Assembly (NCBI RefSeq): GCF_008831285.2 | Contig: NC_045146.1 | Span: forward strand, 16,981,149 to 17,045,148 | Direction: 5' to 3' | Length of the DNA: 64,000 bases | Source: Nymphaea colorata | Taxonomy: Eukaryota > Streptophyta > Magnoliopsida > Nymphaeales > Nymphaeaceae | Shown here: piece by piece, positions 5,807 through 53,145 of the stretch | Position numbering within the stretch: position 1 is the stretch's first letter | How the letters are laid out: each line of letters begins with the position of its first letter | Translations under genes and position numbers: made by a program | Notes under the pieces: model-generated | What the model was told of the DNA's origin: nothing | The model's input: only the letters and a program-made list of their open reading frames with translations | Database searches by the model: none

Positions 5807-5886
5807 CCAGTCTCTCATGTCAGACTCACTTGCTCTATGCCGATCCAGTAGCACTCTGTCATTCCCCTTCCTACGTTTAAGACTAT

Positions 5887-6892: not shown

Positions 6893-6936
6893 TTCCACTG
6901 GAAGATCCAGTTAAATACAGGAGGTTAGTTGGATGT

Positions 6937-7593: not shown

Positions 7594-7594
7594 G
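7584..7594 (+). other. Polypurine tract
   Basis: TTGAGGGGGAG lies immediately before the 3' LTR start TGTTGA. This is the standard plus-strand priming tract of plant Copia elements. Confidence 0.88.
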
Positions 7595-7863
7595 TGTTGA
7601 AGAGGAAAATTAGTTTGCTGATTTTCAGGAATCAAGAAAAATCTTTCCTTTACATCAAAGAGTAAAATCAGAAAGTGAAATTTCAGGAAAGAAATTATAA
7701 TCTTTCCTTCTATCACATGATTGTGATCTTTCAATCCCAAAATTTGTGGGATCTGTATATACCTGTAAAGTTGTATAAATACCTCATCATATATGAAATG
7801 AAGTATCTTTGTTGGCTCACTCATCTTCTTCTTTTCTCTCGTTTCATCACGTTCTTCTTCACA
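7595..7863 (+). repeat. 3' LTR of the Copia element
   Basis: It starts TGTTGAAGAGG and ends CTTCACA, with canonical TG...CA ends. It is 269 bp and homologous along its whole length to 2323-2582. Confidence 0.93.
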
Positions 7864-24190: not shown

Positions 24191-24534
24191 CAATCTGGTC
24201 TACCAATGTTTTATGCAAGAGACACATACTATCATTTTTGTTCTTGTTCCTGGACAGCTCACAAAGCGTTGAATCAACAGGTCCTACCTTAGGTTCACTG
24301 AATTTTCAAGCTCTCCATTTAAGTTGTCACTTGTTGTTTGAGTTCGAGCAAAAGACCAAATTTGCTGCAATAAACACATTGTTGGGATTTCATCTAATTT
24401 TGCTTTTCTTTTTCCAATTTTGATGCCAATCCCATTTTCCTGGCCATCCTCTAGCAGGTAGAAGATCATAGCAAACCGTCAAAATCAATGGCAACCACCG
24501 TTTTCATCCTACTCACTACTCAGGGCCAGTCAGT

Positions 24535-24750
24535 GTTTTATCAAGATCAGGAACGAAGCCAGAAAATTTTCATAAGGTGGATCAAGTCAAATTAAAGTTT
24601 TTAAATTTTGAATAGAGTCGAAATACAACTAAATTTTTTAAAAATTTACATATATTTTTTAAAAATAAATTTATATGTAAATTTTTTTTAAAAAAAAGAG
24701 GTGGGGTAGGCCCGTGCGGTCCCTACCTTGACTCCAGCCCTGGGCAAAAC
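24535..24750. repeat. MITE-like AT-rich repeat, copy 3
   Basis: It opens gaacgaagccagaaaatttt and closes ccttgactccagccctg, which are roughly inverted ends, around a T/A-rich core containing ttatatgtaaattttttt. It is the best preserved of the three copies. Confidence 0.55.
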
Positions 24751-26587
24751 AATTTATAAAATCTCGCTGGATCCTCTGGCTTATCACTGCCTTCATTTTC
24801 CATTTTTCCTTAACACAGCCAGAAAAGCCGGTTCACAGACAATCTTTCGTCATGCTTTTTTTCCCTGGCTATACTAAACGAATGAAAGTTCGGACCACCA
24901 AAAGTTGAAGTCATTCTAAATTTGCTTATTTGAACTCTATTAACGCATACTCTACGTAGCTAAAATTACTATAAAAGTGACTGCACACATTCCCCATGGT
25001 AGAGGGAAGGGAAATGCACCCAAAAGGCCAACTAGAGTTTTAGTCACATAGCTGGGTCTAAAAATGCAAGAATAGCGTTGTACACCATTGGGAGATGTGT
25101 CAATGCTTTTGCATCACTTTGACTACGAACTCGAATGAGATGCAACTCCAAATTTGATGGGCAGTTGACATGAAGAATTTATCAAAACTAGACAACAGAA
25201 AAGGTGCGTTGGGGATGCAACAGTACTGCCTAAAACAACAAACTCAAAATGTGGCAGATTCAATTTTTACTACCCTCATCCTTTTTCTTGCTCTCCATCT
25301 CAGAATATCTGAGTTCCAAATGATTTTTCTCAAGAATCTTTTGGCTACAAAGTTTCAGTGCAGAAACACTGAAAACTTTGTAAACCGAGATTTTGTCTTT
25401 TCCTTTTTTAAGCTCATTCTTAAGGCAAATCCCTTCCCCCACCCCCCCCCCCTTTTTTTTCTGGTTCTCCATCCAAATATCACAAAATTAAAATCCTTGA
25501 CTTTTTTTTTTAACTTTAACTTTCAAATCTAGTCTTTCAGAACTGAAGAGTGTGATAGTTGAAAACGAAAAGGAAAAGGATCATAGGCATGAATGGAAGG
25601 GAGCGTCTCTGTCGAAGCATCTACATCAAACGTCGGTGGCTTCTCACAGTAGATCAGCATTGTTGACTTGTCACCCATCTAACCATTGTTGAGTACTTCT
25701 CCCCTGAATTGCCAAGTTGCATTATGCATGTTCTAACCTAACAAGTAAAGGCTTTTTCAGACAACAATCAGGGAGATCGCTACAAGCTTATGACCAACAA
25801 GAAAGCGAATAATAAATTGTGTTTTTTCATACATTTTGATGAATTGCATGTTTCAAGAACATGTTTTTGTAGAATGTACGACGTAGAGCTGAGATTTAGA
25901 GCTGACCAGTGACATGATGCTAGAATTTGCTGTTATTTTTTTCCGCCTTCTTGCTGTTCCAAGTCTCTGATTTGAACCCAAAATCCTGTACAAAATTAGC
26001 ATTTTCAAATTTGAGCCCATATCACAAGACTCTTCTTGCCAAGCAGAGTAATTACTTACTAGAATCAGAAATACAGATCATGAGTCCTAGCAAAGCTGTC
26101 TGAAGAAAATTTATCATCTTAATGTCCATGAATTTTCAAGAGCGAGAAACATCATATACTTTAATGAGAAATAAGGTAGTGTGATGTCACCAGAATTTAA
26201 ATTACTAGTCAATATGGACAACTCCACTTGACGCTCAAATAAGTCGCTATATGCACAGTCTAGCAGCAAGAGAGAAAACAGAGCTACTGTGCAACCTAAT
26301 AGAGCATAACAGGTTTCGAGCAGCAGGAAGAAATGAGGTTTTCTTGCTTATGAGGTTCTGGTCATCAAGAAGAATTATTCAGAAGAAACAATAACATATC
26401 AAAGGGAATCAGACGTTTCAACAGATCATGAGTCCTAGCACAGCTTATGGAAAGAAATGAATAAAAAAAAGGGGTCAGTTCTCTTCAAATCGAATGATCT
26501 TCACACCGATAATTGTTTTGAGCTACCGAGGAAGAGATGAAGATCGGTGTGGCTCTGGATACCATCCACGAAAACAGAACGAATATT
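24751..26587. other. Spacer within left arm, no gene recognised
   Basis: Contains anchors shared with the right arm (25375-25740, 26070-26240) and a poly-C/poly-T stretch at 25433-25460. No coding signal was found. Confidence 0.5.
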
Positions 26588-26896
26588 AACCTGACCCACT
26601 CCTGAGCTCGAGCCCCTGGTTCGGCGAATCTCAACCCGCCTCCTAGCAATTTCAGCTTCAACCTCAAAAAGGCTAGGAACCAGGACAATCATCTCATTAA
26701 TAGCCTCCTTTTATAAGCCATTGAAGATCCCTCACAATATTCGATACGTGACTAAATTTCTGGGGTGTTACAATCCACCCCCTTAAGGCACACGCGTCCG
26801 CGCGTGTGGAACCCTAGGCTAGGAACCAGGACAATCATCTCATTAATAGCCTCCCTTTATAAGCCCTTGAGGATCCCTCAAATTTCTGGGGTGTTA
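26588..26896 (-). mobile_element. Broken copy of the TRIM element found at 51601-52057
   Basis: 26588-26772 matches a whole LTR (cctgacccactc ... ggggtgttaca). 26773-26818 is the short interior starting with the reverse-complemented polypurine tract (atccaccccctt). 26819-26896 is a second LTR lacking its first half. A degenerate primer-site remnant, gctctggatacca at about 26551, lies left of the first LTR, suggesting that a further LTR once lay there. Confidence 0.8.
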
Positions 26897-26904
26897 GTGT
26901 GTGT

Positions 26905-27300
26905 TGTGCACATGTAGCCCCAAATTTGTCGACACAAAAGAGGCACCATAAAAAAAACCCAAGTCCATTGCATGCCCGGAGAGAGACATGGAGAGAGACG
27001 CTAAAGGCAGCAAGAGAAAGAAAGAGAGATGAGAATAAAGACCTCACTGAGACTAAAAGATGAGGGTTTCCCCTCATCTGATTTTCGCTTGATCGTTGAA
27101 GTTTGTGATGTGAGTTTGATCGTTCTGTTTTTCCGATGTGGTGGACTCTTTGATGCATGCAATTTGTGAGACCTCACGAGGTTCTTTTCTGATTGTTTTT
27201 TTTTTTTCAACGATTTTAATCGAGGCATGGCATTGCGGTTTTCTTTTCAATACTTGCAGGGAGGTCTCTTGTATCTTCTCTGGTGAACTCAAAGGTTGGC
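26905..27300. repeat. Conserved non-repetitive block, inverted partner at 48690-49080
   Basis: About 390 bp aligns in reverse complement to the right arm: gcaccat/gtgcccc, gagagagacatggagagagac, tcatctgattttcgc, ttgtgagacctcacgagg-like and tcttctctggtgaa. It is one of the best conserved non-LecRK anchors. The right copy, read plus, ends in a gaactacag/gtaagg junction that looks like an exon end, so it may derive from an old first exon or leader. Confidence 0.6.
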
Positions 27301-29570
27301 AATAAAAGGATAGAACGCTTTACTGAGAGGAGGCACCAGTTGTTTCTGCAATCTAATTTCTTCTCCTTGTACCTGGGTAAATGGCTTTCTCTCTACTTGA
27401 AACATAATTTCTTGCAGTTCTAGAAGCTGCAATTGTGTTTTGTATGAATTGCTGCCCCCAGCTGCCCCTGCATACTATCCTAGTTGTATAAACTGCTGTC
27501 TATGTTCCTTCCCTCCCCTTGATGTTTCTACTTCCTTTTTTCTTCGCCTTTTGAAGAAAGTTTCATTTTAGGTGGGGAATCCAATTAAAACTGTACAGGT
27601 GCTCTTCATGAAGTATAGTTCCTGATAATTTGCTTTGTCACTAGAAAATAAAGAAGAGGAACACTGGTCACATTCCAAAAAATACTTCAAAGGTTTTATC
27701 TGCTACTACAATAGAGTTGGTGAATAAGGTAGAGAAGAGTAAATAGTGGGCGGTCAGTACCTAATCAGTCGGCGTGATTCGTTATTAACCATTCACGTCC
27801 AATGCATTTTCCATAGCTTCAGCTGGTAGTTACTATCAAGCAACATGTAAACCAAGCAAAAAAATCCTTTCGGTCTCAAGCATGTCATGCCTGGGGTTTA
27901 GGATGTTTGAGTTAGACGACTAAAAATTAAATCCTGTAAAATGTGAACAACGATTATGAACATTAGTTACTTTGTAAACAAAAATATCTAAATAATCTCC
28001 AAGACGGATTGAATTTAACAAGATAACAACCTTCCTATTCATTCTTATAGAAGTCTGATGAAGTGAGGGCTTCAAAAAGGTCTGGTCTCCTTGAAGCAAC
28101 AGATTCTCAGCTTCATAGTTTTTCTGGTCTGGGCACACCAAAAGCAGCATTACCAACTAAACTTCCATTAAGGAGCCTAGGCACAGTGAACCCATCTGTC
28201 TTTCTTTTTGCATCTTCACACGGCAATAGAGATATGAACATGATTGTGCCTTCGACGGCCCTGAGGCTTTTGTTTTATATGTAACACCAAGCTCATGCCT
28301 TGACCTTGTGACCAAGAATGATAGTTCTGGTGAGAGAATGACAGTGAATGCAATTGAAGGAGGAGACCAATCCAAAAGAATTTATGCCTGCAGATCAAGT
28401 GTCACGCTTACCACAGTTTACAACTCAAAGGAGTAACACACCATAGCATGATAGTGACCACGTACGAGATTCAAACCCTGGCCCCTTGAGTGCGAGCTGC
28501 CTTATATAGCTCAGTTGTGCTGTGTCCTTTAAAAAAGGTCCTTTACTTGCAGCAGACAATCTCGGCGATCTCAGTAGTTCTAGCTGGTTCAATCTCAAAG
28601 CGCACAACCGCAGACATGCTTAGGAGCCGACTGACTTTTCAATACCGCGAGGTCATCTTTAACTGCACAAATGGTTCTGTTCTCAGCTCTAGAGAACATC
28701 AATGCATCATCTGCAAAGGATAGAAAGCTGTGGCATATCATATGTTAATCAGTTCAAGAACGCCAACATATAACAATATGGAAAGGGAAGTTTCGCGGAC
28801 ACCAACATACAAAAGAGAGACTAAATCTATGGGATTGGACAATTATTTCAAAGTCAGGAAGCGCGTGCGCCCAAAGTAGAGAACTTCAAATTCCAGAACT
28901 TTCGAAGAAGCTGGATTCACGGTTAGTCAGTATTTTTCAAAAGCATCTGAGTTTTTTTTTCAAACTTTTTTAGAGTGCACAATAAGAAAGAAAATTTTAC
29001 TGAAGTTTCGCCGGCTACTAGGTCCCAAACTAATTAATTAATCACCCAGTTAGTTATATGTCCGGGCCCATGTAGAAAATGGCCCTTATGGAGGAAGATA
29101 TAAAAAAAGGTCTTCTTAAGAGCACATGACTTGACTAATTTTCACATCTATGTGGATGAGGGCAGGTATGAACTCGTAGTACAGGACAAAGGTCCTGTTC
29201 ACGATTTCCAACTGCATGCTCTACGCGAGATTCTCATAAGATGTCCTTTTACAAAAAACCTCAGCTGAGCAAAACTTGCCAAGGACATTATTCCGTCTCT
29301 CTAGATAAGATACTTTTAGAGGTTGAAAGAGGCATGGGACGATTATACATGCTATTTTTGGATTCAACAGTCAGACTTTGGACTTCATCAAACTAATTAT
29401 GTTTAATAAAGAAAGCAAGGTTTAAGATATATATTTCAGAAAAATATGTTCTAAAAGCTCTTCATCTCACCAAGAAAAACCGGAAATGGTGAAAGATGGA
29501 TATGAAGAAGAAATAATGGTCTAAATTCCGCTGATTGACAAAGTGACCAAATAAATATGAAGAAGAAATA
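27301..29570. other. Spacer within left arm, LecRK-2 distal upstream region
   Basis: Carries the anchors 28500-28600, 28735-29335 and 29341-29535 shared with LecRK-3's upstream region. A 22-bp direct repeat (29500-29521 and 29555-29576) sits immediately before the LINE. No coding sequence was recognised. Confidence 0.55.
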
Positions 29571-31330
29571 ATGGTCCGCACGCGTCAATCAAAGAATTGG
29601 GCTCTCTGCCGCCAAGTGGTGACCTGCATCCACCACCATCTTTTAAAATATCAGAAACCTCACTCAATCTCGGTCATGCTTTGTCGTGCGGCTATCGGTT
29701 TTCTTTGCTCGCCTGAGGGGGTTCGTCAAGCGCAGGCTTTGTCTTTCAGTTGGCAGTCTACTATCTTCAATTGCGTTTTCGCCGGCACACTTCAGCTGAA
29801 AGATGCTCGCGGGCTCCTCCAGGCCTTCCTCCCACCAGCGCGTTGTTGTTTTCTCCTTCTGCAGATGGGTGACTGTTCCTTGCGGCCGAGGCTCCCCAAG
29901 GTGGTCTCCGTTGGTAGGCCAGCCCCATCACCGTGGTGTGTCCCCTCTTCTCGGCGTGCTTCCAGGCTTCGTCACCTTCTCCGGTCTGTTGCTTCTATCC
30001 GAGTCAGATGGGGCCAGTGGCGGTGTCAGAGGTGTGCTTCCTTGAACGGCCGCCGGGCCGTCACGTGTTCTCGATGTCGCTTTCCTGCTTGTCAGAATGA
30101 TCGTCGCCTTTTTGCGCGACGACATGGTTTTGCAGCGGTCACTGCTTCCTTCTGGGTCCAGGTTCCTCTGCAAGTTGTTCAGCGGTCACCTTCTTTGGGC
30201 GAGAGCTCTATGTTCTTTGGCTCTATCAGACTTCCTTGGCCTGGGCCTACTTGTCCTGGAACGCGGGGTCCTCCTTTTTCGGTACAGGTTCCGCAGGTTT
30301 TCCGGCCAGGTGATCCGCCGCACCAGTGCTCTTCGGTGGTAGAGCTGCCGCCTTCTCAGCTTCCGCCCTTGCTTCCCTCACCGTGGGCGCCTGCCTCTCC
30401 TCAGCGAAGGAGTCTAGCCTGCTCTCTGCCACGCTCCTCTGAGGTACCCTGCTCGCCCTTTCCTTTTCCTGCTTTGCGAGCTGGGGCTCCACGCGAGTCC
30501 ACCTCGGGCTGCCCCGACCCGTTGCGAGTTGCTGCTAAGTCTGACCTTGGCGACGTCCAGTTGTCTGCACCGTCTCTTTCGGTTGCCCGCCCGTCGGCAG
30601 AGGGTCTTTCCCTTGAGGCTGCTGTTGTTGCTCGCTCTCGTCTGACTGCGGCCTGCGTTGTCTTGGCCTCTGGAGTCTCGGCACCCCCAGTAAGTCATTC
30701 TCCCTCTGTTGCCTATACGTTGCTCTTTACCTTGGTTACTGGCCCCCTATGCCCCCCCTTACACCCAGGACCTCCTCCTTTGCCTATCTGCCTTGGGTTT
30801 TTTCTGTTTCTTTTGACGGTAGCTTTAGCTCTTACTGGCCTTCCCTGCATATTCTGCTCCCTAGACTCAGTCGCTGCTCGACTCTAAACCCCACCTACCT
30901 GCCCCTCCCACCGGTTAGCCCTGCCCTCTCCCGCATCCCTTATGTTGGCTCTTTTTCCCCTGCCCTGCGGTCTGAGTCTGAGTTCACCTCTGCCCCCTCG
31001 TCCTCCCCTGTTCAGTTGTCTAGCCCCACCACGAGTCCTATGGGTCGTCACTCCCAGCCCGATAGGTTGCCACCTGTTGCCCCCTTGTTGGATGCTGAGT
31101 TGGGCATCTCCCTCCCGGATGCGCTTGACGCTCTTAAGGTCTCTCTTCCGCCTGAGCAACTTGATTTGTTGCGGTCCTCTTTTGCTGCCGCTGTGGTACC
31201 GGTCTCCCGCTCCAGCCTGGCCAGGTTGCGGCGGGAATTGCGTAGGATTGGGGCTTCTGCAGCCTCCGTCCTCCCTCCTGGTGCCGCCAGGGCGGCCAGA
31301 CGTTCGTCGCTTCACGTGGTTTCCCCATGA
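29571..31330 (+). pseudogene. LINE ORF1 (nucleic-acid-binding protein), frameshifted
   Basis: ORF1 proteins of plant LINEs bind RNA and form the particle with ORF2. The first frame (29571-30887) contains a Cys cluster, WRCQRCASLNGRRAVTCSRC, near 30022, reminiscent of the usual CCHC knuckles but imperfect, then a Pro/Ser-rich region. A second frame, open from 30617 and with an ATG at 30749, runs to 31330. It has a convincing helical C-terminal part (LDAELGISLPDALDALKVSL ... LARLRRELRRIG). Joining them needs a frame change between about 30617 and 30887. The stop codon overlaps the ORF2 start as ATGA. The N-terminal boundary is uncertain. Confidence 0.55.
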
Positions 31331-34300
31331 GGGTTGCATGTTGGAATGTGCGAGGCCTCAGTGCCCGTTATCGGCGTAGGTATCTCTCTTCTTGGATCCG
31401 TCAGCATGGGCCTTCGGTGCTTATTGTGGTTGAGACCAAGATGTCTGTCATCTCTCACGCTTGTGTTCGTACTTTGTTGCGCCAACCGTCCTTTGGGTTC
31501 CTTCCAGCTTGAGGAGCAGCGGGCGGCATCCTGCTGGCTTGGTCTCCACCCCTTACAGGGGCTATTGTGCATGTCGGAAGGTACTCTATCTCTGCTTCTC
31601 TCAGCGGATTTTGGCCTAATGGTCCGGTCCTGGTTACAGCGGTTTATGGCCCTTGCGTTGGGGCTTTGCGTGGGCAGCTGTGGGCTGAGCTGCATCAAGT
31701 TCGCCAGCTTGCAGCTTCCCCTTGGTTTCTGGCAGGGGACTTCAACTGTTTGCTTAGCCCTGCTGACTCATCCTCCCCTGTCACTTCTGGCCCGTCTATG
31801 TCTGCTTTTCGATCTTTCGTTGATGAGTTTGGTCTTTTTGACGTGCCTTCGACTAACGGTACGTTTACTTGGCCTAATAATAGGAACCCTCCGATCCTTC
31901 GTAGGTTGGACCGTATCTTCCTCTCGCCTGAGTTGTTCTCTGCTTTTCCTTCATCCTCCTTGGTTCTTGGCCCGAGGCACCTGTCTGATCATGCTCCGCT
32001 GCTCTTTTCCCTTCTTCGGGGTAGAGCTGGTACCGGGCACGCCAGGTTTCGTTTTGAGATCTGGTGGCTCCGTGATGAATCCTTTGTAGCTACCGTCCCT
32101 AATTGGTGGGCTCGTGCAGTCAATGGTAGGTGGGCAGCTTTCAGGCTCTCGCGGAAGTTGCACTCCATCAGGAGGGAGGCGCTCGCCTGGAAGCGCATTT
32201 TCTGGAGCAGCAAATTTTCGGAAGTGGCCGTTTGGGATGAGGAGATCATGTCCCTTCAGGCCTCTGATAATATTTCTGCGGATCAGTCTTCCCGTCTCCT
32301 TTGTCTGCAGTGTCTTGCCCAAGAGTGGCGCATGAGGGAGTCTATCCATTGGCAGCAACGCTCTAGGTTGGGTTGGCTCGCGCATGGGGACCAGAACTCT
32401 AGATTCTTCCACTTGGCCGCCTCTCAGAGGCGCCGTCAGACGTTGCTCCAGGCCATGGGTATCGGGGGCAGGATTTTTCTTGGTGATGACATCCTCCCGG
32501 CCCTGAGCGCTCATTTCAAGGATTTCTACTCTAAACCTCTTCGCTTCCGTGCCACGCTGCCGGATTTTCACCTCTCCTCTCTCTCTGTCTCTTGTGCGAT
32601 CGCTCTTGAGCGGCCCTTCCAACACCAAGAGATCAAGAACGCGGTCTGGGCCCTTGGCTCGGGTAAGGCGCCTGACATTGATGGTTTCCCAGTCGAATTT
32701 TTTCGTACTTTTTGGGAGGTTTGTAGCGCGGATGTGTTTGCGTTTTGTGATGAGTTCGCCTCCTATTCTGTTTTCCTCAAGGAATTCAATCAAGCTACCT
32801 GCGTCCTGGTGCCTAAGCGCCCTAACCCTACGGACGTCACCCACTTTCGCCCGATCTCCATCCTTGGCACGCCGTACAAGATTATTGCTAAGTTGCTCTC
32901 TATGCGGCTTGCACCAGTCATGCCTTCGGTCATTAACCTCTTCCAGGTTGCTTTCGTCAAGGGTCGGCGTCTGCAGGATGCGGTTGTCCTAGCCAATGAG
33001 GTTGTTCACTCCCTTTACTGTCTGCGGCTACCTTCATTCATCCTGAAGTTGGACATCTCTAAGGCTTTTGACTCGGTTAGTTGGGAGTTCCTTTCTGACC
33101 TCCTCACCCGTCTTGCGTTTGGTCCTTCGTTTAGGCAGTGGATCATGTCGCTTGTCACTGGGGCCCAGCTTGCGGTCTCCTTCAATGGGAAGTGTGGTGA
33201 TTTCTTCTGTCTCGAGCGTGGCCTCCGTCAAGGTTGCCCGTTATCTCCCTTGCTTTTCAACTTGGTTGCTGAGAGCTTTTCTGCGCTTTTCCATCACGCA
33301 ACGGTCGTTGGCTTCCTCACACCCCATTCGCTCCCCCACTTACCGTCCTTCTCCACCCTTCAGTATGCTGATGATTTTCTTCTGTTCGGCAGTGCTTCTC
33401 GCCAGCAGGTTGTGAGAACTTGGCTCATCCTTCGGGTCTTTGAGCTCATGTCAGGTCTTTCTATCAATTCCGCCAAATGTCACATCTCCTTCATTCACGC
33501 GGATCCGGCCACGGTACTTCTCGCGAAAGCTTGCTTTGGGTGTAAGGCTACTAGTCTGCCCATGGACTATCTGGGGCTTCAGATTACGTTGTCGCCTCCC
33601 GCTCCTTCTTTTTGGGATGGGGTGGAGCAGAAGCTTACGGATCGCCTTCAGTGTTGGCAGGGAAAGCTGCTTTCTCTTCCAGGTCGGATTACTTTGGCTA
33701 AGCACTGCCTCGCGTCGGTTCCTCTCCATGCTTTGTCTGTCTTTCGGCCTCCTGTGGCTGTCTTGCGTAGGTTTGATAAGCTTATTCGTAAGCTTGTTTG
33801 GGATGGTGATCGACCTTCAGATCGCCTAGCGCATTGGGATGTGGTTGCCTTTCCGCGTCTTCTTGGTGGTGCTGGGGTTACCAACCTTAGTCGGGCTTGT
33901 GAGTCTTCCCTGTGTTCTTGGTGGTGGCGGTTAGCTACTGAACATTCTCCCATCACCCAGTTCATTAGTTCAAAATTCGACCTGCCTTCCCCTAGCGTCT
34001 GGCATAGTTCTATATCTCACATCTCCCCTTCCCAGTTTTGGTCCGACATGCTTTCTGTCCTTCCTCTTTTCCTCCGCCTTGCTGACCTCTCATCGTTCAC
34101 GTCCCCATCCTGGCCCCTTTCACCTACCCGTGAGTTCACTTTTTCTTCTTGCTACCTGGCCTCCTTTGGTCCCTCTGTCGCGTCACTCCCCCCCCGGTCT
34201 CTTTGGTCTCCTGGCCCATCTCCTCGAGCCATTGCTTTTGTCTGGCTTCTTCTGACTGGCCATATCAACACTTTTGATCACCTACAGCGCCTTGGCATCA

Positions 34301-34662
34301 GTTTGGCTAACCAGTGTCCCTTATGTCTTGTTGCGACTGAGTCTAGGGTCCACCTTTTTACTTCTTGTCCTTTTTTCTTTAGTGTCCTTGCTTCTACTTG
34401 GCCTTCCCTTATTAGTAATCTTCCAAACCCACCATTTATTCGTCTTTTCTTCCTCTTTTGTCATTCCCCCCACCTGACTGCTTCTTGGGGTCATGTCTGG
34501 AGGCCGTGGCTCATTTCAGCTTGGTGGCACATTTGGGTGGAGCGCAACAACAGGGTCATCAGGGGCACCTTCTCTTCACCAGATTCTGTGGCTCGTCTTG
34601 TGCAAGGGGATATCCAGTTCGCCATTCGGATAAAGCGCCGCCGCCTGACTGCGGTTGGGTGA
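31327..34662 (+). pseudogene. LINE ORF2: AP endonuclease / reverse transcriptase, one in-frame stop
   Basis: ORF2 nicks target DNA and reverse-transcribes element RNA. From the ATG at 31327 the frame opens with MRVACWNVRGL, then the endonuclease residues VVETKMS, GDFNCLLSP and, later, RHLSDHAPLLF. A TGA at 31510-31512 interrupts this frame once. Immediately after it the expected GAAGGILLAW continues in the same frame, so the domain is otherwise complete. The reverse transcriptase has FRPISILGTPYKIIAKLL, LDISKAFDSVSW, LRQGCPLSPLLF and the catalytic LQYADDFLLFG (33361 onward). The C terminus has a zf-RVT-like segment (FVWLLLTGHINTFDHL ... CPLC ... HLFTSCPFF). The length of about 1110 codons is normal for plant L1 ORF2. 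No RNase H domain was seen. A single substitution separates it from an open frame. Confidence 0.9.
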
Positions 34663-34796
34663 CTGTGCCGTTTCGTCTTTCTTCTTCTCTCTTATTTTTC
34701 TGTGCATTGTATTGTTTATTTGTTCCTCTTGCTTGCGTAATTTTGTTCTTTGCGGATTGTTTTTATATTTAGGGGACCTCTTGTCCCCAAATTTTG

Positions 34797-34805
34797 TTAT
34801 ATATT
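34797..34805 (+). promoter_or_regulatory. Possible TATA-like sequence at the LINE/LecRK-2 junction
   Basis: TTATATATT lies at the LINE 3' end, about 45 bp upstream of the LecRK-2 ATG. It is the only TATA-like word between LINE and gene. It is unusually close to the ATG for a plant TATA box, so functional use is speculative. Confidence 0.2.
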
Positions 34806-34848
34806 CTCATTTTATCGGCTCTCTCTATCTCTCTCTCTTCGTTCTGCA

Positions 34849-36894: not shown

Positions 36895-37149
36895 ATGTCT
36901 CGGTCCAGTCGCCAAGTAAAATAGATGCATGACAGATCTGCTCCACCAAGTGTGAAAATGTACTTTTCTTACAACTGTAAAAGTTAACCATGCCTTTTTA
37001 CTAGAGCTTGTTGGAAATTCTGTGGACTCTACTTAAGGATACATTCCTCAGCTAAACTAAGATTCATTAGAGCTCCTCCGTAAAGTCTGTTCAATACAAG
37101 TCTTTTTCTTTATTGGAGTACGAGTCTCTAAGCCTCTGTAAACAGAGGT

Positions 37150-40984: not shown

Positions 40985-41370
40985 TAGGAACAACACACAA
41001 AACTCTCCTCTTGCACTCTCAAGAGGGTGATAGAAGCAACAAGGAAGAAGACAAAGATTTATATGGTTCGGAACAATAATCTTCTAAGTCCACAGTCGCA
41101 CAAATCTTTTACTATTCACTTTCAGATGAACACAGACACTCTCAGAGAGAAGACCAAAGATGAAACTGCGGCTCCCCTCACAACATAAGGATTAGGGCAA
41201 ACCCGTATTTGTATAAAATGACATAAATGGCCTTACATAAGAAAAAATGACATAAATGTCTTTACAAAATGACATAAATGCCCTCACAACATAAGGATTA
41301 GGGCAAACCCGGAGTTGGATCCACGGTATTGCATATGAGAGTGCCCAGTATAGATCAAGTTCCATACACC
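40985..41370 (+). repeat. Dispersed repeat, copy 2 (partner at 17435-17730)
   Basis: It begins tgttaggaacaacacac and contains the ggttcggaacaataatctt block and three internal atgacataaatg words separated by about 30-40 bp. The 21-bp phrase starting cctcacaacataaggatt occurs twice (41176 and 41282). It ends around atccacggtattgcatatgag. It is longer than copy 1 because of this internal duplication. Confidence 0.65.
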
Positions 41371-41639
41371 AATATGAAGAATAAAAGGCCTTCTAGCCTC
41401 ATCCGGGCTGTGGATAACCCAACCCACCCTGGCTTGACGTGGAACGGTGTTAAATGGAGTGTAAAATTTTTTTCTTTAATACTGCGTGAACGTAATGGGA
41501 TTTTGTTTGAGGCGCTATATTGAGATAAAATGACAAATTTATACTGCTCCCCGTTATCCATTGAGCACTCCATGGAATTAACAGATGAGCAGCCTTTCTC
41601 GGTCGAGGAATCTACTTCTATAGAAAGAATAGCACCTTT

Positions 41640-43415
41640 GTATGAATTTTACATTACAACATGTCATTTCAGCTTTGCCTCACTATTGGAGTCTAGTTTT
41701 TAAAATTCCTAAAGAGATTGATAAAAGAATACATAATTTATCTGCCAACTTTCCACCATGAAGTGACAATGACTCAAAAAGCCACATTTCATCAGCTGGA
41801 CCAACATGCTTGCCAAAGAAACAGGGGAGAGTTGGTCTTCGCAGATTAGTTGGTACTAATAAGGCTGCTCTCATTTTATGTTGCGAATAGAGATCTCACA
41901 AGGCACTCTAAGTGGGCTACTTTTATTCCTCACAAATATCTTAAAAGAAATAGCATGTGGATTGAAATAGCATTTCAAACGAGCTCAGTGGTGTGGAGGG
42001 CGTGTGCACAGGCGTGGTATACTATTAGCTGCAAGATCAGATTGCGGGTTAATGATGGCAGTCTAGCTAACTTCTGGGAGAACTGGGGTCATCAAGTTCC
42101 AAAATGTAGAATTCCTGAATCCATTCACTCTCTGTTCCAAGCAACTCTTTTTCACATCTATTCAAAATATGTGTTGCAGGACAATGGAGAGGGTGTTTTC
42201 TCCATTCAGAATGTTGGAGTCAATTGTCAAGTACCCAGATTAGACATTACGAAGCCAGACTGGCCAATTTGGGATCAATATCTGTTGAGAGAGATTAATA
42301 AAGAAGCATTTCGGAGGAGAATAGACATCGTGTGAATAGTGAATCATGGAGAACTCATGTATGTAATAGGATAAAGATGCGAGAGCCTGCTGGACAGTGT
42401 ATGTAGGTTGTGAAGGTAGATTGCAGACGTGCTAGAATCAAACATCTAGGTTTTAGTTTCGCATTTCAATGTCCCCTATGTAAGGCGGCAGGGGAAGATG
42501 AAAAACATCTCTTCTTCCAAGGCCCTGTTGTACAAAGATTGTGGAAAAGAATTGAAGCATATTTTGAGCAAAAATGGAAAGCAAGCAGCAGCTTCAAGCA
42601 GGGTTTGCTCTGGTGGTGTGGAAGAACGATTCAAAACAAAATTCGATACAATTGCTGGAAAAATTGTTATCAGATCGGAGTTTGGTCTATTTGGTTGTTG
42701 GGAAATCGCCTGAGGCACGAACGACTTAAAGATACTCATTTTGCTGCAAGGAATATCTGGAACCACTACAAGGAAACTTTCAATGCTTTCAATTTCAAGG
42801 AAGAAGGGTATAAGGCTATAACAGGATGGCTGTTCACAAGATGCATTTGGGGGGACTGGTCATGGGATAATCGGCATGGAGTTTATATACATGTATATCA
42901 ACGAGGTTGTAAATGGAAATCAAAACATTATAAGGGTGATTAAGCTTTGAGATGGCACTTATCCTCCAGCTATAGCCAGGTGGGATGAGATTTAATTGAA
43001 GGTATAGCAGGGAAGACGGTGAAATTTAATTGCAGGTATAGCAGGGAAGACTCTGTGCTTTAGCAGGTGTTTAAGGTGATTCAGGAAGGCACTAAAGAAA
43101 CGATATGGTCTGCTGGTATATTAATAGAAGCTAATGACAAAAATGGGGGCAAAAGATTGACAAGATACTTGAAAAGAGTCACACTAACCAAATATTCCAA
43201 CCTTATACGAAAGTTTTTTTGTCGAATTCAGGTCAGCAGGAGGAGACCCGTGTGTGGATGGAGAATAGCATTGTAGAATGGAGACCATTCCTTGTCATTC
43301 GTAGTAATGCTGAGGCGATCAGCCACCCATTTTGTATTTTGTTTATGTAAATATCTTTTGGACGGGGCTTATCCCCCAGCAGCGCTTTTTCTGTTGTCAG
43401 TAATCACATATCTAC
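41640..43415 (+). mobile_element. Degenerate LINE tail B, inverted partner of tail A
   Basis: Plus-strand frames at 41850-42335 (SSVVWRACAQAWYTISCKIR, then DGSLANFWENWGHQVPK) and 42410-42943 (IKHLGFSFAFQCPLCKAAGEDEKHLF, GVWSIWLLGNRLRHERLKDT) match tail A almost residue for residue. The non-coding end also matches (ctttgagatggcacttatcc, gggatgagattt, the gacccgtgt block, ttttctgttgtca). There is no YADD box here: homology starts later, at about 41640. It lies downstream of LecRK-3 exactly as tail A lies downstream of LecRK-2. Confidence 0.85.
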
Positions 43416-43929
43416 AAGAAACCACATATCTACAAGACATAGTTGCATGTTGTCAATTCGATTACTGTTGGTATTATTCTAAAGAGCCTTTTGTAGTGAG
43501 GTACCGGGGAAAATTAAAGGTGCAGTATTCCCATACCCAACTCTCGATGCATCCTAAAGGGAGTGGATGAATAACTTGTTAATATTGAAGGTGCCCAACA
43601 ATCAAAGTCACTATGATCAAATATACAAATCAAATATACAAAATTAGACCGCTGAAACCTCTGAGGACTAATGACTCAGAATCCCACAAAGAATCTACGT
43701 AGGAGTCTAGGAGCTCTAAGGATCTTAGCCCGGAGAATAGATTCTAAAAATCCCGGTATAAACCAATTGATATGGGCTCCTTAAATAGAGTCCACACAAA
43801 TTTCCAACGAGCTCTAATGAAAAAGGCATTGTTCCCTTTTACAATTGGCAAGAGAAGTATACATTGCGCAGCTGATAGTTGAGCAGATGTGTTATGCATC
43901 CGTTCTTCTTGGCAACTGGATTGAGACGC
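43416..43929. other. LecRK-3 downstream region
   Basis: Read on the minus strand it matches the LecRK-2 downstream region: gcctttttcattagagctcg with gcctttttactagagcttg, then ttggaaatt.tgtggactct, ttagagctcct and cagaggtttcag. These are probably homologous 3' UTRs. No other gene was seen. Confidence 0.6.
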
Positions 43930-45996: not shown

Positions 45997-46043
45997 TGCA
46001 GAACAGAGATAGACACAGAGAGAGGACCAAATGGTATTAAGTT

Positions 46044-46165
46044 GATGGAATCGTGGTGGAGATTAATAATTGACATTGACGAAGCCAATTTGTTGACCGT
46101 GTCGATCAGCGTAATTTTGGCCGTATATAAAGATGATGGAATCCTGGTGGAGATTAATAATTGAC
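46044..46165 (-). repeat. 31-bp direct repeat in the LecRK-3 promoter
   Basis: 46044-46074 and 46135-46165 are identical at 30 of 31 positions (gatggaatc, then g or c, then tggtggagattaat...ttgac), with starts 91 bp apart. A related single copy lies upstream of LecRK-4 (about 59645-59675: gatggtggagactcat ... attgacatgg). It could be a duplicated regulatory segment. Confidence 0.7.
46124..46130 (-). promoter_or_regulatory. Candidate TATA box for LecRK-3
   Basis: TATATAA on the plus strand, TTATATA on the minus strand, lies about 130 bp upstream of the LecRK-3 ATG and between the two 31-bp repeats. A start about 30 bp downstream would give a leader of about 95-100 nt. The orientation is ambiguous, so confidence is low. 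Confidence 0.3.
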
Positions 46166-46404
46166 GCCCGAGTTTCTTCTTTTGGGGGCAATTTAGACCT
46201 TCCTTTCTTTAGATCAGCCTTTCTTCCTTATTCATATGCATCTTTCACCATTTCTGATTTTTCTTGTTGAGATGAAAGTTGAGCTTTTGGATCATCTTTT
46301 TCTAAAATACATATTTTAAGAATACCTTTTTTTTTTTTTTTACATATATATATAGTGAGTCTGATTGTTGAATAAAAAAACAGCATTTATAATCGTCCGA
46401 TGCG

Positions 46405-46930
46405 ATGTCCCCAAATTTTGCTCTTGAGAGAGAGAGGGAGAGGTTTAATTAAAAAGTTAAGGTGTCCAAAAAGATATGCTGATTCCCTCTGAAAACTGAA
46501 AGTATTTTTAACTGTGATATACAACAGTTGTATATCGAGAGAATTAAAGTTTTAAAATCTAAAAAAGTCCGAAGATCATTTTTTTTGTAATGGATTACCT
46601 TGAGAATACTAGATTTGTCGTTCTATGTTAATGCAGTTGCTTGTTTTGTGCATGCATAAAAATGAATTTCCATCAGGCTGCAGTGCTAGGGAAAAAGTTT
46701 TAAGCGCCATTAAACAGGGTTCATCGTCAAGTCGTCGCTTCCTATTCACAACTTCCTCCCTATTCACAACTTCGCCCACAGCGTACTCTCTTGACAAATA
46801 ATTTAAAGTAATGGTGACAAGGGGCGGAGGGAGGGGGGGGGCGCCTAGGCCATGGCCCCACCCTGGCAAAATGAAAAAAAAACTTTTACATTGAAAAAAA
46901 AACATTACTTTTTAATCACTCTATGTATTT
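46405..46930 (+). repeat. Right-arm-specific insertion carrying dispersed repeat modules
   Basis: Left-arm sequence 29335-29341 is contiguous where the right arm has these 525 bp. The insert contains a copy of the 13.9/15.1/23.8-kb module (46610-46800: gtgcatgcataaaaatgaat, the tttccatcaggctgca block, ggttcatcgtcaa) and a G-rich ggggcggagggaggg patch of the gcggag-type MITE. Confidence 0.55.
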
Positions 46931-48447
46931 TGTAGATTTAAATTTAGTTTGGCCTTACCCAGATGGACTGTCTTACTCTTTCAACCTCTACAAGTCTCTT
47001 ATAATACTAGAGAGAGAGAGGAAAAAATGTCTTTGTTGGCTACCTCAAGTACTCAAAAGAAATAGGTGCCCTCGTCCTGTATTGCGACTTGCGAGTTCAT
47101 ACCTGCGCTCCTACGAAGTCTTTCTTTTTTGTCTTTCTCCAAAAAAGTTAAGGGCCATTTTCTACATGGGCACGAAAACATAACCAACTGGGTGATTAAT
47201 TAAATTAGTTTGAATCCTAGCTAGGAAACCAGATGATTTAAGATTGCCAAGTGATCGTGCACGCCAAAAAGTTTGAAAAAAAAAAACTCAGATGCTTGGT
47301 CTTGCCTTTGGAAATTACCGACTACACATATTTCTACGAACCAAGCTTCTTCGAAAGTACGGGACTTTGAAGTTCTCAACTTGGGTGCACGCGCTTCCTG
47401 ACTTTGAAATTGTCCAATCCCATCGATTTAGGCTCTCTTTTGTATGGTGGTGTCCGGGAACCTTCCCTCTCCATATTGTTCTATGTTGGCGTCCTTTGAA
47501 CTAATAATTAACATATGCCACAGCCTTCTAGCATTGACTGCAGATGATGTATTGATCTTGTCTATGGCTGGGAACAGCAGCATTTGTGCAGGTAAAGATG
47601 GTCTTGCGGTATTGAGAAGACAGTCTGCGGTTGTGGGCTTGCAGCTTGAACCAGGAGATCGCTGAGATTAAAGGATCTCCTAAAAAGGGGAGTAGCTCAA
47701 CCAGTTCCTTCTTACTCTTTTCACATGAATGCCTCGTATTTTTAGTTTCACTTGAATGAATATCGTGTTCTTAGAATGAACATCGTGTTCTATATTAACA
47801 GTACTTTGTTCTACTTCTGTTAAACATGGAGTGATCCTTCCAATGTTTAACTGTTGAATCTAAAATAGCAGTCTTAATCACACATGTTTTTTTGCAATAA
47901 AAACATTCTTTTGTTTTGAAGCATTTGTTTTACCAACTTACATTTCAAGCACACAATGTTCTTATGATTGAATTGCTTCCACCTGATAAGCCATTTTCGG
48001 GACATGTCTTTCTTTTTTTGGTGAAACCTATCAATATCCCTCAATCCGTTTGGACTTGGACACATCCATTCTTTGATCGGCTATCTACCAAATAAATTAA
48101 ATAATGCACTTTTCGGTAGGTTTGCAAGAAGAACGGGTTCCTTTTTATTCTTAGCCAGACTTCTGTGAACAATGATTAGTTCCTGGGTCCGAGTTTTTTC
48201 ATATATATTAACTAACCTTCTATTTTGTTACCAGAAAACCAAGTCATTCTATGTACAGATTAGATTTCACAATCCAAAGTGTTCCCGACTGCTTCGAACG
48301 TCTTCCCCAACGACGGAAATCTAAAGACAAATAGCTAAAGTTGATATGCTCTCAGACTGAGAGCTCGTTTGATTGGCATTCGCGGACAAGAAGAACATGA
48401 ATATCATGTAAATGTAATCAGAGGCGGAGCCAAAAGCTGTTAATTTG
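46931..48447. other. Spacer within right arm, no gene recognised
   Basis: Holds anchors 46930-47530 and 47650-47710, shared in inverted order with the left arm. 47330-47490 also recurs directly at 63840-64000. No coding signal was found. Confidence 0.5.
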
Positions 48448-48513
48448 GGGGTGCGAATGTCAAAATTTTCCAATATTGTTGAACTCCTATACGAATTTTG
48501 ACATTCGCACCCC
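48448..48513. repeat. Perfect 20-bp inverted repeat (hairpin)
   Basis: ggggtgcgaatgtcaaaatt (48448-48467) and its exact reverse complement (48494-48513) flank a 26-nt loop. It is preceded by gaggcggagccaaaagc, the usual opening of a widespread plant MITE type, so it is probably the core of a very short MITE. Confidence 0.85.
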
Positions 48514-48689
48514 AAGTAGTTTTGACATCAAGCAGTTTATACGACTAAGATGGTATGCACTGGCAGTAGTCTACGAGTAGGCAGTAGTTTAGAGCCAAAA
48601 TTTTCCAATATTACTTAGATATTCTGAACACAACCATTTAGAACAGCAAGAAATTATGTTTCAAGTACAGAGAAAGCTTTAACCTCCTC

Positions 48690-49080
48690 CTTTCACCAGA
48701 GAAGACACTAGAATACCTCCCTGTAAGAACTGAAAAGAAAACAACAATAACATGCCTCGATTAAAATCGTTGACTAAAAATCATAAGACAAATTTCATGA
48801 GGTTTCACCAATTGCACGCATCAAAGAGTCGACCCCATCGGAAAAACAGAACAATCAAACTCACCTCTCAAACTCCAACGATCAGGCAAAAATCAGATGA
48901 GGGCAAATCCTGATCTCTTACTCCCAGTGAGGTCTTTAGAGTTTCTTCTCAGCTCTTTTCCTTTATCGTGCCGTCCCTAGAGTCTCTCTCCATGTCTCTC
49001 TTTGGGCAAGCAATCAATTAGGGTTTTTTGATTGTGCCCCTTTTGTGTTACGAATTTGGAACTACAGGTAAGGCCTTCGC
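48690..49080. repeat. Conserved block, inverted partner of 26905-27300
   Basis: See the left-arm entry. Read plus, it ends with a sequence like a 5' leader (gtctctctccatgtctctc, attagggttttttgattgtg) and gaactacag followed by gtaagg at about 49066-49073, an exon-end-like junction. No open frame crosses it. Confidence 0.55.
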
Positions 49081-51600
49081 ATACCTAAACCCGGTAATTT
49101 TCCCCCCTTTTTGCTGTTTGAAACCTATTTTTGCTTTATGAGGTTGCAGATGAGCTCCGTGTTCACCCTTCGCTGCTATTCTTTACATTTAGCGACTTAT
49201 TTGAACATCAAGTGGAGTTCTCCATGTTGACTCGTAATTGAAACTCTGGTGACATCACACTACTTTATTTCTCATTAAAGTATAAGATGTTTCTAGCTTT
49301 TGAAAATTCATGGACATTAAAATAATATATTTTCTCCGTATAGCTACGCTAGGGCTCGTAACCTGCATTTCTGAACCTAGCAAGTTATTGCTCGGTTTGG
49401 CAAGAAAACTCTTGTAATAATGGTTAGAAATTTAAATATGCTAATTTTGTATAGGATTTTGGGTTCAAATCATAGATTTGATACAGCAAAAAGGGGGAAA
49501 AATAAGAGCAAGTATCGTATCGCTAGTAAAGGTGGGCAACCGGTTGGGTACCCGATGAATAGTTGAAAATGCAGCCGGTGGTGGACTGGGTTGGGATGAC
49601 TATTTGACATTTGGGTCAATAGATAAAAGAACACGTCCGGCCAGGTTAGCCTGAGTCGGGTATTAGGAGCTGAGTCAGTCCGACCTATGTATTTAAAATT
49701 CATCTTTTCACATTTTTTCATTATTATTATTTTCTCTCTCTCACACTTTCTTTATATATATATATATATATAATATAATATAAACTTTTGCCCATTGCCA
49801 AATGCTCCTTAAAACTCTTTGTGTATTAGCTTCCTTATAAAAACTCATGTTTGTTGGTTATGACTTTCTTAAAAACTCTTGATACAACTTTGATGGTTTT
49901 CAATATATTAAAAAATGTAACGTCAACCGATTCCAATAAAGGTAGCCATCTAAACCAAGTACCCAATGAATATAAAGTTGACGGTCGGGTTCTACCCGAT
50001 AACTAAACGGCCTATGCTTTAGGCAGTCAACAAGAGCTTCGGCCCAGCCCGAGGCCTAGTTTGTCGAGCCTGGGTCAGCCTGTCATGGCCCGATGCCCAG
50101 CCTTTAATTACTGGTCAACTAAATTTTACATCTACATAGTATTTTCTACAAAAATATGTTGAACCATGCATTTCAACCAAAATGTACGAAAAAACACTCT
50201 CTTACTGTTGATAAAAAAACCGTTAGCCAACTCCCAAATTGTTGCCTTAAGAAGTCTTTAATTGTTCGGTTAGACCATGCATAAGGCAACTTGGCAATTA
50301 GGGAAGAGGTACTCGACTATGATTAGATGGGTGACAAGTCAATAATGCCACAACGCATTTTTCGTGATCATCTGTGAAAGCCACCGACCGACGCTTGAGG
50401 CAGAGGCTTCGACACAGGTGGTCCATTGCACTTATGCTCGTCGCCCTTCTTTTCCCTCTTCAAATATCACACACTTGAGTTCTGTTTCTTTAGCCCATAT
50501 TTCATGAAAAAAAAAAAAACAAGATTTGAAAGGAAAAAATATAAAGGATTTTAATTTTGTGATATTAGGATGGAAAACCAGAAAAAAGGGGATTTGCCTA
50601 AAGATTGAGCCTAAAAAAATGACAAAGACAGAGAAAAATGAAAGGCAAACTTCGGGGAAAATCTCGCTTCATATCAAGGCATGCATCAAAATAGACTAAA
50701 TGAATCAATCCAAGCTTGTCTAATGTTGTCAATAAAGAAGATAAGAAACAAGGCACTCACAACTAATTGAGAACCAGTGCCTACTTTGAATTGAAAATCT
50801 TCAGGAATTCCTTCAACAAAATTCAAAGAAACCAAACAATACTGAAGGTCGCAAACACTAGCACAAAAACAAGAACTGCAACAGAATACACACAGCAAAA
50901 TATTCCAAACTCATATAATCCAATCTTAACCCAAAAACGCAGTCAAACAAACAGACTGGACAAGGGAACAAGTTTCTATAGTCATCATTTCCTTCAGGAG
51001 CATCCTTGAGACAAGCTGCATGCAGTTCATGACTCGGAGCATATTTGGGAGCCAAACAATCTGAAGGACATAATTCTTCAATTTGAACGAGCTATAAAAC
51101 TGCAGAGAACGCCTGCACCAGCCATTTCATCCTGGCAAGCTTGCACATAGTGAAGCTATCGAGCTGGTGGTGAAGCAAAAATTAAAGTTAAAAAGACCAA
51201 GCATGCTAAGACGACACTGCTTTCTTAGTTTCTGTCTTGTTTCATAAATGATTTTGTCTCTAAATAACATCCAAATTAACCAATTAGTCTCCAACATATT
51301 GATGACACTAATTCTGTATCAAAGTAAACCCTTGAAAATTCGTCGAAGGAGGGTGTAACCCATTCAACACGTCCAATTCGTAGTTCACAAACCAGTGCAC
51401 AAAAGATAAAAGCAAACTATGACGTGAGTATAACTTTGAGAAGTTTCCATCCAACCACCAGAACCAACTTACCCAACACTGCGTTTGGGTCTTGTCTTCT
51501 TCATACTGTCATTAGAAGCACAGAATCAACAATGTCATGCATTCAAATATTCTCTCCATCAAAGCGGAGAAACGACACAAAATGTGGACAGCAACAGGGG
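49081..51600. other. Spacer within right arm, no gene recognised
   Basis: Apart from the TA microsatellite it holds the anchors 49205-49345 and 50265-50640. The region 49520-50110 is GC-variable without a domain. No RNA gene was recognised. Confidence 0.45.
49752..49782. repeat. (TA)n microsatellite
   Basis: About 12 TA units, then tataatataatataa. Confidence 0.9.
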
Positions 51601-51791
51601 TGTAACGACCCGACCCACTCTTGGGCTCGGGCCCTTAGTTCGGCAGATCCCAAGCCGCCCCCTATCAGTTTCAACTCTAAACCTAAAAAGGCTAGAAAGC
51701 AGGACAATCATTTCATTAATAGTCTCCCTTTATAAACCCTTCAAGATCCCTCATAATTTTTTATACAAGACTAAACTTCTGAGGTGTTACA
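51601..51791 (-). repeat. TRIM 3' LTR
   Basis: 191 bp, starts tgtaacgacccgacc, ends ggtgttaca on the plus strand. It is the downstream LTR in element orientation. Confidence 0.9.
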
Positions 51792-51866
51792 ATCCACCCC
51801 CTTTAAGGCACACACGTCCATGCGTGTGGGACCCAAGTCCAAGTATTGAACCGGCTCTGATACCAC

Positions 51867-52057
51867 TGTAATGACCTGACCCACTCTCGGACTCGGGCCC
51901 TTAATTCGGCAGATCTCAACCTGCCTCTTAACAATTTCGGCTCTAAACATAAAAAGGCTAGAAACTAGAACGATCATCTCATTAATAGTCTCCCTTTATA
52001 AGCCCTTCAAGATCCCTCACAATCTTCGATACAAGACTAAACTTCTAGGGCGTTACA
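51867..52057 (-). repeat. TRIM 5' LTR
   Basis: 191 bp, starts tgtaatgacctgacc, ends ggcgttaca on the plus strand. It adjoins the primer binding site. Confidence 0.9.
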
Positions 52058-53145
52058 AGAGGAACTAGCAAAGCCTGGAGAAACAACAATATTCAATACA
52101 AGGGCAAGGTTTTTTCATTTAACTTAACATAAAATTAAAAACAAAAAGAAAAAAAGACAGCATTTGCTGTTCATTTTAAAAATGGAAAAAAGAGACAGCA
52201 CCATGCTTATGCATGCACCTCACTGCCGCTGTGATGGACACGCATCGGGTAAACGTGCGACCCTTGAAGTGTGCACTTCACAGCTTGAAGCACATGCACT
52301 TTACAACAGTGGTGAAAAGTAGAGATTCTTGCATTTTTAGAAACAACTGTGCGACTAAAAATCTAGTTGGCATTTTGGGTCCATTTCCCTTTCCTCTACT
52401 GTTTTGTTTAATTGGCATTTCATTTCTCCCCACTGTGTATTCTTCACTAGACACTTTACTTTGGGAGATCTCTGCAGTTTGGCTGCATAAGGATACATGG
52501 AAAAGGAAGGCAGTGAAATTAATAATTGTGATAATGTATGTGTGAAGAAATTGGATATGATGAAGAACAATGAGAACCATTCATTCTAACAAGTTTTGGT
52601 GATAGAAGCCAGAGGGATCCAACAGGATTTCATAACTGTATTGTCGACGTGCCCTGAGTAGGACGAAAACAGAGGGCCTCACGGATTTTGGCGGTTTGCT
52701 ATGATCATTTATCTATCTATCAAAGGATGGCCAGGAAAAAAGGGATTTTCTTCAAAAATGAAAAAAGAAAAACAAAATGAGATGAAATCCTAACATTGTG
52801 TTTATTGCAGTAAACTTAGTCTTTGCTCAAACTCAAACATCAAAGTTTAGAATCTTTGACAACATATGTTAGAATTGGTTTCTCAACGCTGCACTAGGTC
52901 ATGCGACTAATTTTTGCAACATTCAAAGTCCATCACTACTTCTCCTTCCTCGGTAAGGGGTCTCTACTTAAAAAGCTTTTAGTTTTGTAAAAAGAAACTT
53001 TTCTTGTCCGTTGTAAATAGACACTGTAAAATAACATGTGACCTCTTTGTATATATATTACAGTGCATAATGAAAGAAGAAAGTTTTACTCGCCATTTTT
53101 GGTTAGCCTCTCCTTGCTTTTGCACATTTTCCATGAAGAAGAAAT
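52058..53145. other. End of right arm and spacer before Copia 2
   Basis: Contains the anchor 52690-52890 (gcggtttgctatgatcat, the caggaaaaaagggattttc block, caaaatgagatgaaatcc), shared inverted with 24245-24480 and directly with 62805-62970. The part after about 52980 may be the decayed 5' LTR of Copia 2. Confidence 0.5.

Follow-up and report, generated by a model that had tools for sequence, protein, structure and literature searches.

Inverted arms of two divergence classes around a tail-to-tail LecRK pair in Nymphaea colorata: probable old inverted duplication with later homogenisation of the inner half

Local expansion of LecRK genes, opposite-facing neighbours and gene conversion among duplicated receptor kinases are already known, as outlined in three reports (PMC5322546, PMC6368629, PMC7023750). 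For the L-type LecRK arrays of the Brassicaceae and relatives, the outline in PMC5322546 gives nine head-to-tail arrays, with a single head-to-head pair as the exception. The locus of Nymphaea colorata described here resembles these arrays in that legume-lectin receptor kinases are clustered as a result of local duplication, but differs from them as outlined there by a tail-to-tail pair with long inverted flanks. A second parallel are the tandem families of CRKs, where, according to the summary in PMC6368629, nearby receptor-kinase duplicates are kept alike by conversion, as we propose for the genes g2 and g3 of our locus. The CRKs are however tandem duplicates, and inverted arms are not mentioned in that summary, whereas the divergence between g2 and g3 is split near the boundary of ectodomain and kinase and the contrast runs on into the flanks. 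The third parallel is provided by the palindromes of the Salix W chromosome, which in the brief description of PMC7023750 have inverted gene-bearing arms with evidence of conversion; the arms of g2 and g3 are likewise inverted and gene-bearing. The Salix palindromes are described there as 200 kb in size, with 20-kb highly conserved stretches, and lie on a sex chromosome. In contrast, the arms of g2 and g3 are 11–15 kb long and lack clear conversion tracts, and their flank blocks are 79–87% identical at aligned sites, so that the near-identity of the arms which marks a gene-converting palindrome is not found. Judged by title or start of abstract, none of the open-licence papers listed for LecRK or RLK clusters with inverted duplication or gene conversion described such a locus.

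The stretch of DNA analysed here (the window) comprises 64,000 nucleotides, C9:16981149-17045148 of a 408-Mb assembly in 783 contigs, and contains four LecRK genes (g1, g2, g3 and g4, Table 1). Both arms are part of an eight-gene LecRK cluster on C9 (g0 to g7, frames or frame pieces), which beyond the window harbors more direct and inverted copies of pieces from both arms. In g1, g2 and g3, Pfam finds a legume lectin and a protein kinase domain in one protein, as in L-type LecRKs, and a hydrophobic stretch, putatively the single transmembrane helix expected between these domains, is visible in the translations. Among neighbouring LecRK genes of the genome that are 2–50 kb apart, 29 of 41 pairs are direct and 12 are opposite-facing (six tail-to-tail, of which two in the C9 cluster, and six head-to-head); this count is based on 79 places obtained from 113 matches, with pieces of one gene merged and broken genes included, and leaves aside several small contigs, one weak chromosome match and pairs less than 2 kb apart. 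Opposite-facing LecRK neighbours are thus a minority in this genome, not a rarity. The remark that LecRK clusters are usually direct holds both for this count and for the arrays in the outline of PMC5322546.

Table 1. Features of the inverted locus, in positions of the window.
Feature	Position	Strand	Remarks
g1, LecRK	10197-12233	minus	Lectin_legB and Pkinase both above Pfam cut-offs
Left arm, outer (5') non-coding half	24331-29519	+	13 collinear matches; reverse homology to 52843-46218; cluster-private or nearly so
Short repeat in left arm, not an anchor	26589-26885	+	internal repeat; 26588-26818 belongs to a high-copy family
Young 5'-truncated L1-type LINE	29677-34837	+	ORF2 31798-34662; RVT_1 and zf-RVT domains
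g2, LecRK, 681 aa	34849-36894	plus	frame unbroken; Lectin_legB and Pkinase above cut-off
Left arm, inner (3') half: 3' flank and degenerate LINE tail (LINE minus strand)	37156-38991	+	
Spacer, resembling the upstream DNA of an absent plus-strand LecRK	40546-41644	+	collinear inverted matches to g6 and g7 upstream flanks, ending at 41643/41644
Right arm, inner half: 3' flank and LINE tail (LINE plus strand)	41644-43625	-	
g3, LecRK, 688 aa	43930-45996	minus	frame unbroken; tail to tail with g2; Lectin_legB and Pkinase above cut-off
Right arm, outer half	46218-52843	-	parts with direct copies at ~70-79 kb and 113-115 kb, outside the window
Repeat insertion in right arm, not an anchor	51601-52070	+	empty site in both direct copies of right arm
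g4, LecRK	57538-59678	minus	broken frame

By aligning the left arm with the reversed right arm (blastn) we obtained 16 collinear minus-strand matches with 5692 bits, which form an inverted chain from 24331/52843 to 38895/41646. All but one of these matches (3636 bits) are found outside the LecRK gene match, 13 of them upstream of the gene and two downstream. With the gene included, 6355 of 14565 bases of the left arm are aligned, or about two thirds when the 5.16-kb LINE is left out. With the genes cut out, dinucleotide shuffles gave no match in any of 20 cases, the reversed control yielded no chain and the same-strand control a chain of three matches with 354 bits, the same kind of match as the same-strand short repeats at 26.6 and 51.6 kb. 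The midpoints of the three inner matches fall at 40.27–40.42 kb and those of the 13 outer matches at 37.7–38.7 kb, or ~40.3–41.3 kb after discounting the LINE. The initial annotation had predicted such an antidiagonal with a break at 29.6–34.8 kb, at least nine reverse-order anchors comprising genes and non-coding blocks, and midpoints near 40.3 kb once the LINE is removed. The antidiagonal was recovered, its gap at ~29.7–34.8 kb is the young LINE left of g2, and the corrected midpoints come close to the predicted value. The matches are not limited to the LecRK genes and the LINE tails, as collinear inverted non-coding anchors are present on both sides of the gene.

The main anchor blocks are not due to dispersed repeats. 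The block 37100-38990 is found at three places in the genome, all in the C9 cluster (3 of 3 candidates scored), and 24320-24530 matches the cluster only (7 of 7). The stretch 24990-26480 has, besides the cluster, two weak short matches on C3 (114 bases at 76% and 45 bases at 89%; 6 of 6 candidates scored), the longer of which touches part of the anchor 25927-26325. For 26900-29530 the large arm matches are restricted to the cluster, and copies elsewhere were found for ~27327-27503, 27460-27855, 27963-28231, 28219-28388 and 28388-28533 (22 of 22 candidates scored); the first of these, with a 93% copy on C3, includes the small anchors 27384-27422 and 27462-27497. A common repeat occupies ~24546-24764 (40 of 922 candidates scored), and the stretch containing it was searched anew as the two pieces 24320-24530 and 24990-26480. 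Short repeats were not counted as anchors. As the genome searches skip very common words, absence of a match is no proof. The collinearity of the non-coding blocks that flank the genes on either side, and their almost exclusive match to the LecRK cluster, support an inverted segmental duplication.

The two arms have not diverged uniformly. The pooled K2P, a low estimate because BLAST-trimmed blocks lean to high identity and calculated without the 3' UTR block and seven of the 13 outer matches (29–75 bp), amounts to 0.216 for the outer 5' flanks (95% 0.182–0.256; 2052 sites, six blocks) and to 0.144 for the inner 3' flanks (0.122–0.164; 1644 sites, two blocks; left 37156-38895). This order was reversed in none of 1000 bootstraps, and transversions alone agree with it (0.096 outer vs. 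0.060 inner). The 3' UTR block is above its inner neighbours with K 0.258 (145 sites). With K of 0.14–0.22 the duplication can be called old, as had been proposed. The genes are divided in the same manner: Ks between g2 and g3 is 0.513 for ectodomain plus TM and 0.217 for kinase plus tail, in detail 0.486 for the lectin domain, 0.652 for the TM/linker, 0.264 for the kinase and 0.106 for the C-terminal tail. The synonymous difference is 0.376 in the outer and 0.204 in the inner half (permutation p 0.0004), and nine other pairs subjected to the same test gave no p below 0.05 (lowest 0.06). The best change point is at amino acid 370 of g2 (p 0.0005), inside the start of the kinase domain. Ka/Ks is 0.73 for the lectin domain and 0.12 for the kinase. 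Due to their broken frames g4 and g6 are absent from the main codon alignment; they were instead compared with g5 and g7 one codon at a time. Neither flanks nor genes thus display the uniform divergence of a single event without later exchange. As the adjoining non-coding DNA differs in the same way, the pattern is poorly explained by protein-level selection alone.

It is established for this locus that the arms are inverted and collinear, that they fall into two classes of divergence, and that insertions entered them later. These observations are most simply explained if a segment of the LecRK cluster was duplicated in inverted orientation long ago and the inner part of the arms was homogenised at a later time. 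We regard this account as probable; the main alternative is the replacement of one ectodomain. The inverted duplication would have produced two arms, each with 5' flank, receptor gene and a 3' flank in which the LINE tail was already inserted. The inner halves, which begin near codon 370 of g2 and extend over the 3' flank and the LINE tail, would later have been re-homogenised, most likely by arm-to-arm gene conversion or by a second local exchange, and the outer flanks and lectin-bearing halves would meanwhile have gone on diverging. Afterwards, parts of the right outer flank and the neighbouring g4 would have undergone direct duplication, the 3' flank with its LINE tail would have gained a third copy ~56 kb rightward in reversed orientation, and a short repeat would have entered the right arm and the young LINE the left arm. 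We infer that gene conversion was responsible, in which direction the copying went, and that the locus began with an inverted duplication instead of a direct one that was inverted later. Direct copies of parts of the right outer flank and of g4 with its flanks are found ~22–26 kb rightward (K 0.085–0.127), with an additional copy of an outer flank part at 113–115 kb (window coordinates, outside the window; K 0.119), and these copies are younger than the inverted arms.

The opposite order, in which the genes were first duplicated head to tail as in most of the cluster and one unit was inverted later, appears possible but rather unlikely. This order would fit the predominance of direct pairs among close LecRK neighbours (29/41) and, in particular, the spacer, which carries the upstream flank of a plus-strand LecRK and ends sharply at 41644, as if g2 had once been part of a direct array. 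Position 41644 is not the fold point of the duplication but a junction, at which the LINE tail abuts DNA from the promoter side of a plus-strand LecRK that is missing. The expected reciprocal junction, in which the LINE would continue into a LecRK promoter truncated at the corresponding position, was however not seen, and the genome search for LINE-tail DNA gave no copy beyond the known three. The spacer also matches the upstream flank of g1 in reverse, less well than those of g6 and g7, and is interrupted at ~40979-41372 by a high-copy repeat (40 of 1297 candidates scored). A descent of the spacer from the g1 upstream flank is not supported, g6 and g7 being nearest (K 0.79 each in whole-region alignments, distances too large to be trusted).

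A further reading, which we consider unlikely, takes the locus as a single inverted duplication of moderate age, and the main later change as the replacement of one lectin half from another paralogue, either by a g1-like donor into g3 or by a lost donor into g2. The gene trees, which count in favour of inner homogenisation too, speak for it: the kinase tree strongly joins g2 and g3 (99/99; g1+g3 rejected, AU p 0.0005), and the ectodomain tree places g3 with g1 (93/95; g2+g3 rejected, AU p 0.02). In addition, Ks between g1 and g3 drops to 0.34 in the windows starting at amino acids 180 and 210. What such a replacement leaves unexplained is the higher divergence of the outer non-coding flanks, kilobases off, compared with the inner flanks. 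The closest genome matches of both the g2 and the g3 ectodomain are within the C9 cluster; outside the cluster, the genome-wide search for an ectodomain donor gave nothing above 38% identity over at least 100 residues or above 41% over shorter stretches. That the ectodomain pattern could stem from one replaced lectin half, g1 and g3 being nearest to each other there, counts against inner homogenisation.

Other pairs of the cluster allow the flank and gene distances to be calibrated. The direct pair g4/g5 has flank K of 0.120 (5') and 0.127 (3') and Ks of 0.208 for the ectodomain and 0.271 for the kinase; the nearly equal flank values show that there is no general 5'/3' rate difference in this pair. 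In the direct pair g6/g7 flank K is 0.106 (5'), 0.147 (3') and 0.072 (far 5'), and Ks is 0.267 for the ectodomain and 0.174 for the kinase; since the 3' flank exceeds the 5' flank, flank K can vary along a unit. A kinase Ks below the ectodomain Ks is seen in the direct pair g6/g7 as well, and the opposite direction in g4/g5 and g5/g7, the permutation test having been applied among these three to g5/g7 alone (p 0.16). Taking the near flanks, Ks is 1.2 to 2.5 times flank K. On this scale, outer K of g2/g3 (0.216) fits an ectodomain Ks of ~0.5 (2.4 times) and inner K (0.144) a kinase Ks of ~0.22 (1.5 times). The spread between the calibrating pairs is a warning, as g6/g7 also has the lower kinase Ks. 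The search for conversion tracts at third positions gave a weak signal, the longest g2-g3 run having p 0.04 in the whole CDS and 0.17 in the kinase half. This weak tract search, the high K of the 3' UTR block, the half-differences in other paralogues and the flank K of g6/g7 all count against inner homogenisation.

Receptors of the immune type must vary in sensing and yet keep a working kinase. The pair g2/g3 is a natural case of unequal silent divergence between the two halves of a receptor, and the adjoining non-coding DNA differs likewise. We speculate, with considerable doubt, that the inverted layout itself keeps the signalling module and the 3' end alike through pairing of the inner arms and leaves the ectodomains free to diverge, the outcome being set by the distance from the palindrome centre. 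If so, one half of the receptor would undergo concerted evolution and the other would diverge. The inverted layout is ordinary in kind; it is the two-age mosaic which is the interesting part of the locus.

The LINE tail shared by the arms contains zf-RVT remnants, in the left arm at 37804-38148 (minus; 6.2e-07, above the Pfam cut-off) and in the right arm at 42407-42943 (3.1e-05, below the cut-off). The 3' flank and LINE tail occur a third time at 98029-100016 (window coordinates, beyond its end), in reversed orientation with respect to the right arm, and no LecRK was matched next to this copy. The three copies are 74–83% identical as BLASTN matches and 86–91% at aligned ungapped sites. The third copy pairs with the right copy (K 0.098, vs. 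0.13–0.15 to the left copy); of 272 variable sites among 1564, 130 are unique to the left, 70 to the right and 62 to the third copy, and at 10 all three differ. For 38895-38991 the third copy is the sole match, as homology between the left and third copies reaches ~95 bases deeper into the LINE than that of the right copy. These sequences are by far best read as a single ancestral insertion that was subsequently copied. Two separate gene duplications, each with a LINE insertion of its own, are very improbable: relatives of the LINE are common at the protein level (at least 148 matches), but those elsewhere are at most 42% identical (150 of 739 candidates scored), the LINE-tail DNA is found at only three places, all in the cluster, and the collinear, nearly private non-coding anchors contradict this scenario. 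The initial annotation had likewise preferred an inverted segmental duplication to two separate gene duplications, which the nearly cluster-only blocks flanking the genes bear out, and had deduced a single event from the shared LINE tail. The tail does look like a single ancestral insertion, but the single event does not follow from it: the tail is located in the younger inner half and thus cannot witness the first event, as a later exchange could have carried it. The LINE tail shows common descent of the inner parts and not joint copying of outer and inner parts. Independent evidence for the first event comes from the outer blocks, which are collinear, nearly cluster-private and similar in K (0.193–0.243). 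As a caution, a shared transposon is no proof of a single duplication when the stretch in which it resides may have been exchanged later.

Each arm has in addition received insertions of its own. The repeats 26589-26885 and 51601-52070 are 82–83% alike, on the same strand and not inverted, and are most likely independent insertions judging from their copies. They were rejected as anchors: they share the strand, the left one belongs to a family with ~85–91% matches to 26588-26818 at dozens of places on many scaffolds (40 of 1940 candidates scored), and the right one has empty sites. A false inverted duplication introduced by the assembly can be practically dismissed: the only circumstance to name is an assembly in 783 contigs, no supporting sign was found, and ~13–21% differing aligned sites between the arm blocks and different insertions in each arm contradict it. 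The tail of the young LINE is CT-rich and stops 10 to 30 bases upstream of the g2 start codon; the 3' limit, within 34816-34839, is unsure because the g2 leader itself is CT-rich. A search for a target-site duplication, carried out before these limits were mapped, gave exact repeats between the two ends of at most 8 bp, neither pair of which fits the limits, and we claim no such duplication. Copies on C1 and C5, which continue further 5', share 98% identity with the element. With a divergence of ~2% the element is far younger than the arms, and it now lies between g2 and its former upstream DNA.

The reading frame of g4, a lectin receptor kinase (LecRK) gene of the cluster, is interrupted, and the same gene contains a 54-bp direct repeat. 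Internal direct duplications of 72–86% identity are found in the upstream flank of the LecRK gene g1. Near the left end of the window the 245 bp terminal repeats of a Copia-like element are 97% identical and lie on either side of an RVT_2 frame.

Positions of the features (window coordinates, except for chromosome C7)
Feature	Position
Copia-like element	2338-7863
Its terminal repeats	2338-2582, 7619-7863
g1 upstream flank	13598-15958
g4	57538-59678
g4 frame interruption	near 58212
g4 direct repeat	58790-58843, 58898-58951
Ectodomain fragment, outside window	~86.7 kb
g6, outside window	~103.2-105.4 kb
Lectin-domain groups, C7	13.2-13.8 Mb, 22.4-24.7 Mb

Beyond the window, g6 has an open frame of just 349 aa and is 94% identical to its direct partner g7 in the kinase half and 81% in the ectodomain half. 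The nearest match found for the N-terminal part of g3, one gene of the tail-to-tail pair, is a LecRK ectodomain fragment whose protein is 77% identical to the g3 N-terminus. Chromosome C7 carries big groups of lectin-domain matches in mixed orientations, numerous copies being broken or partial.
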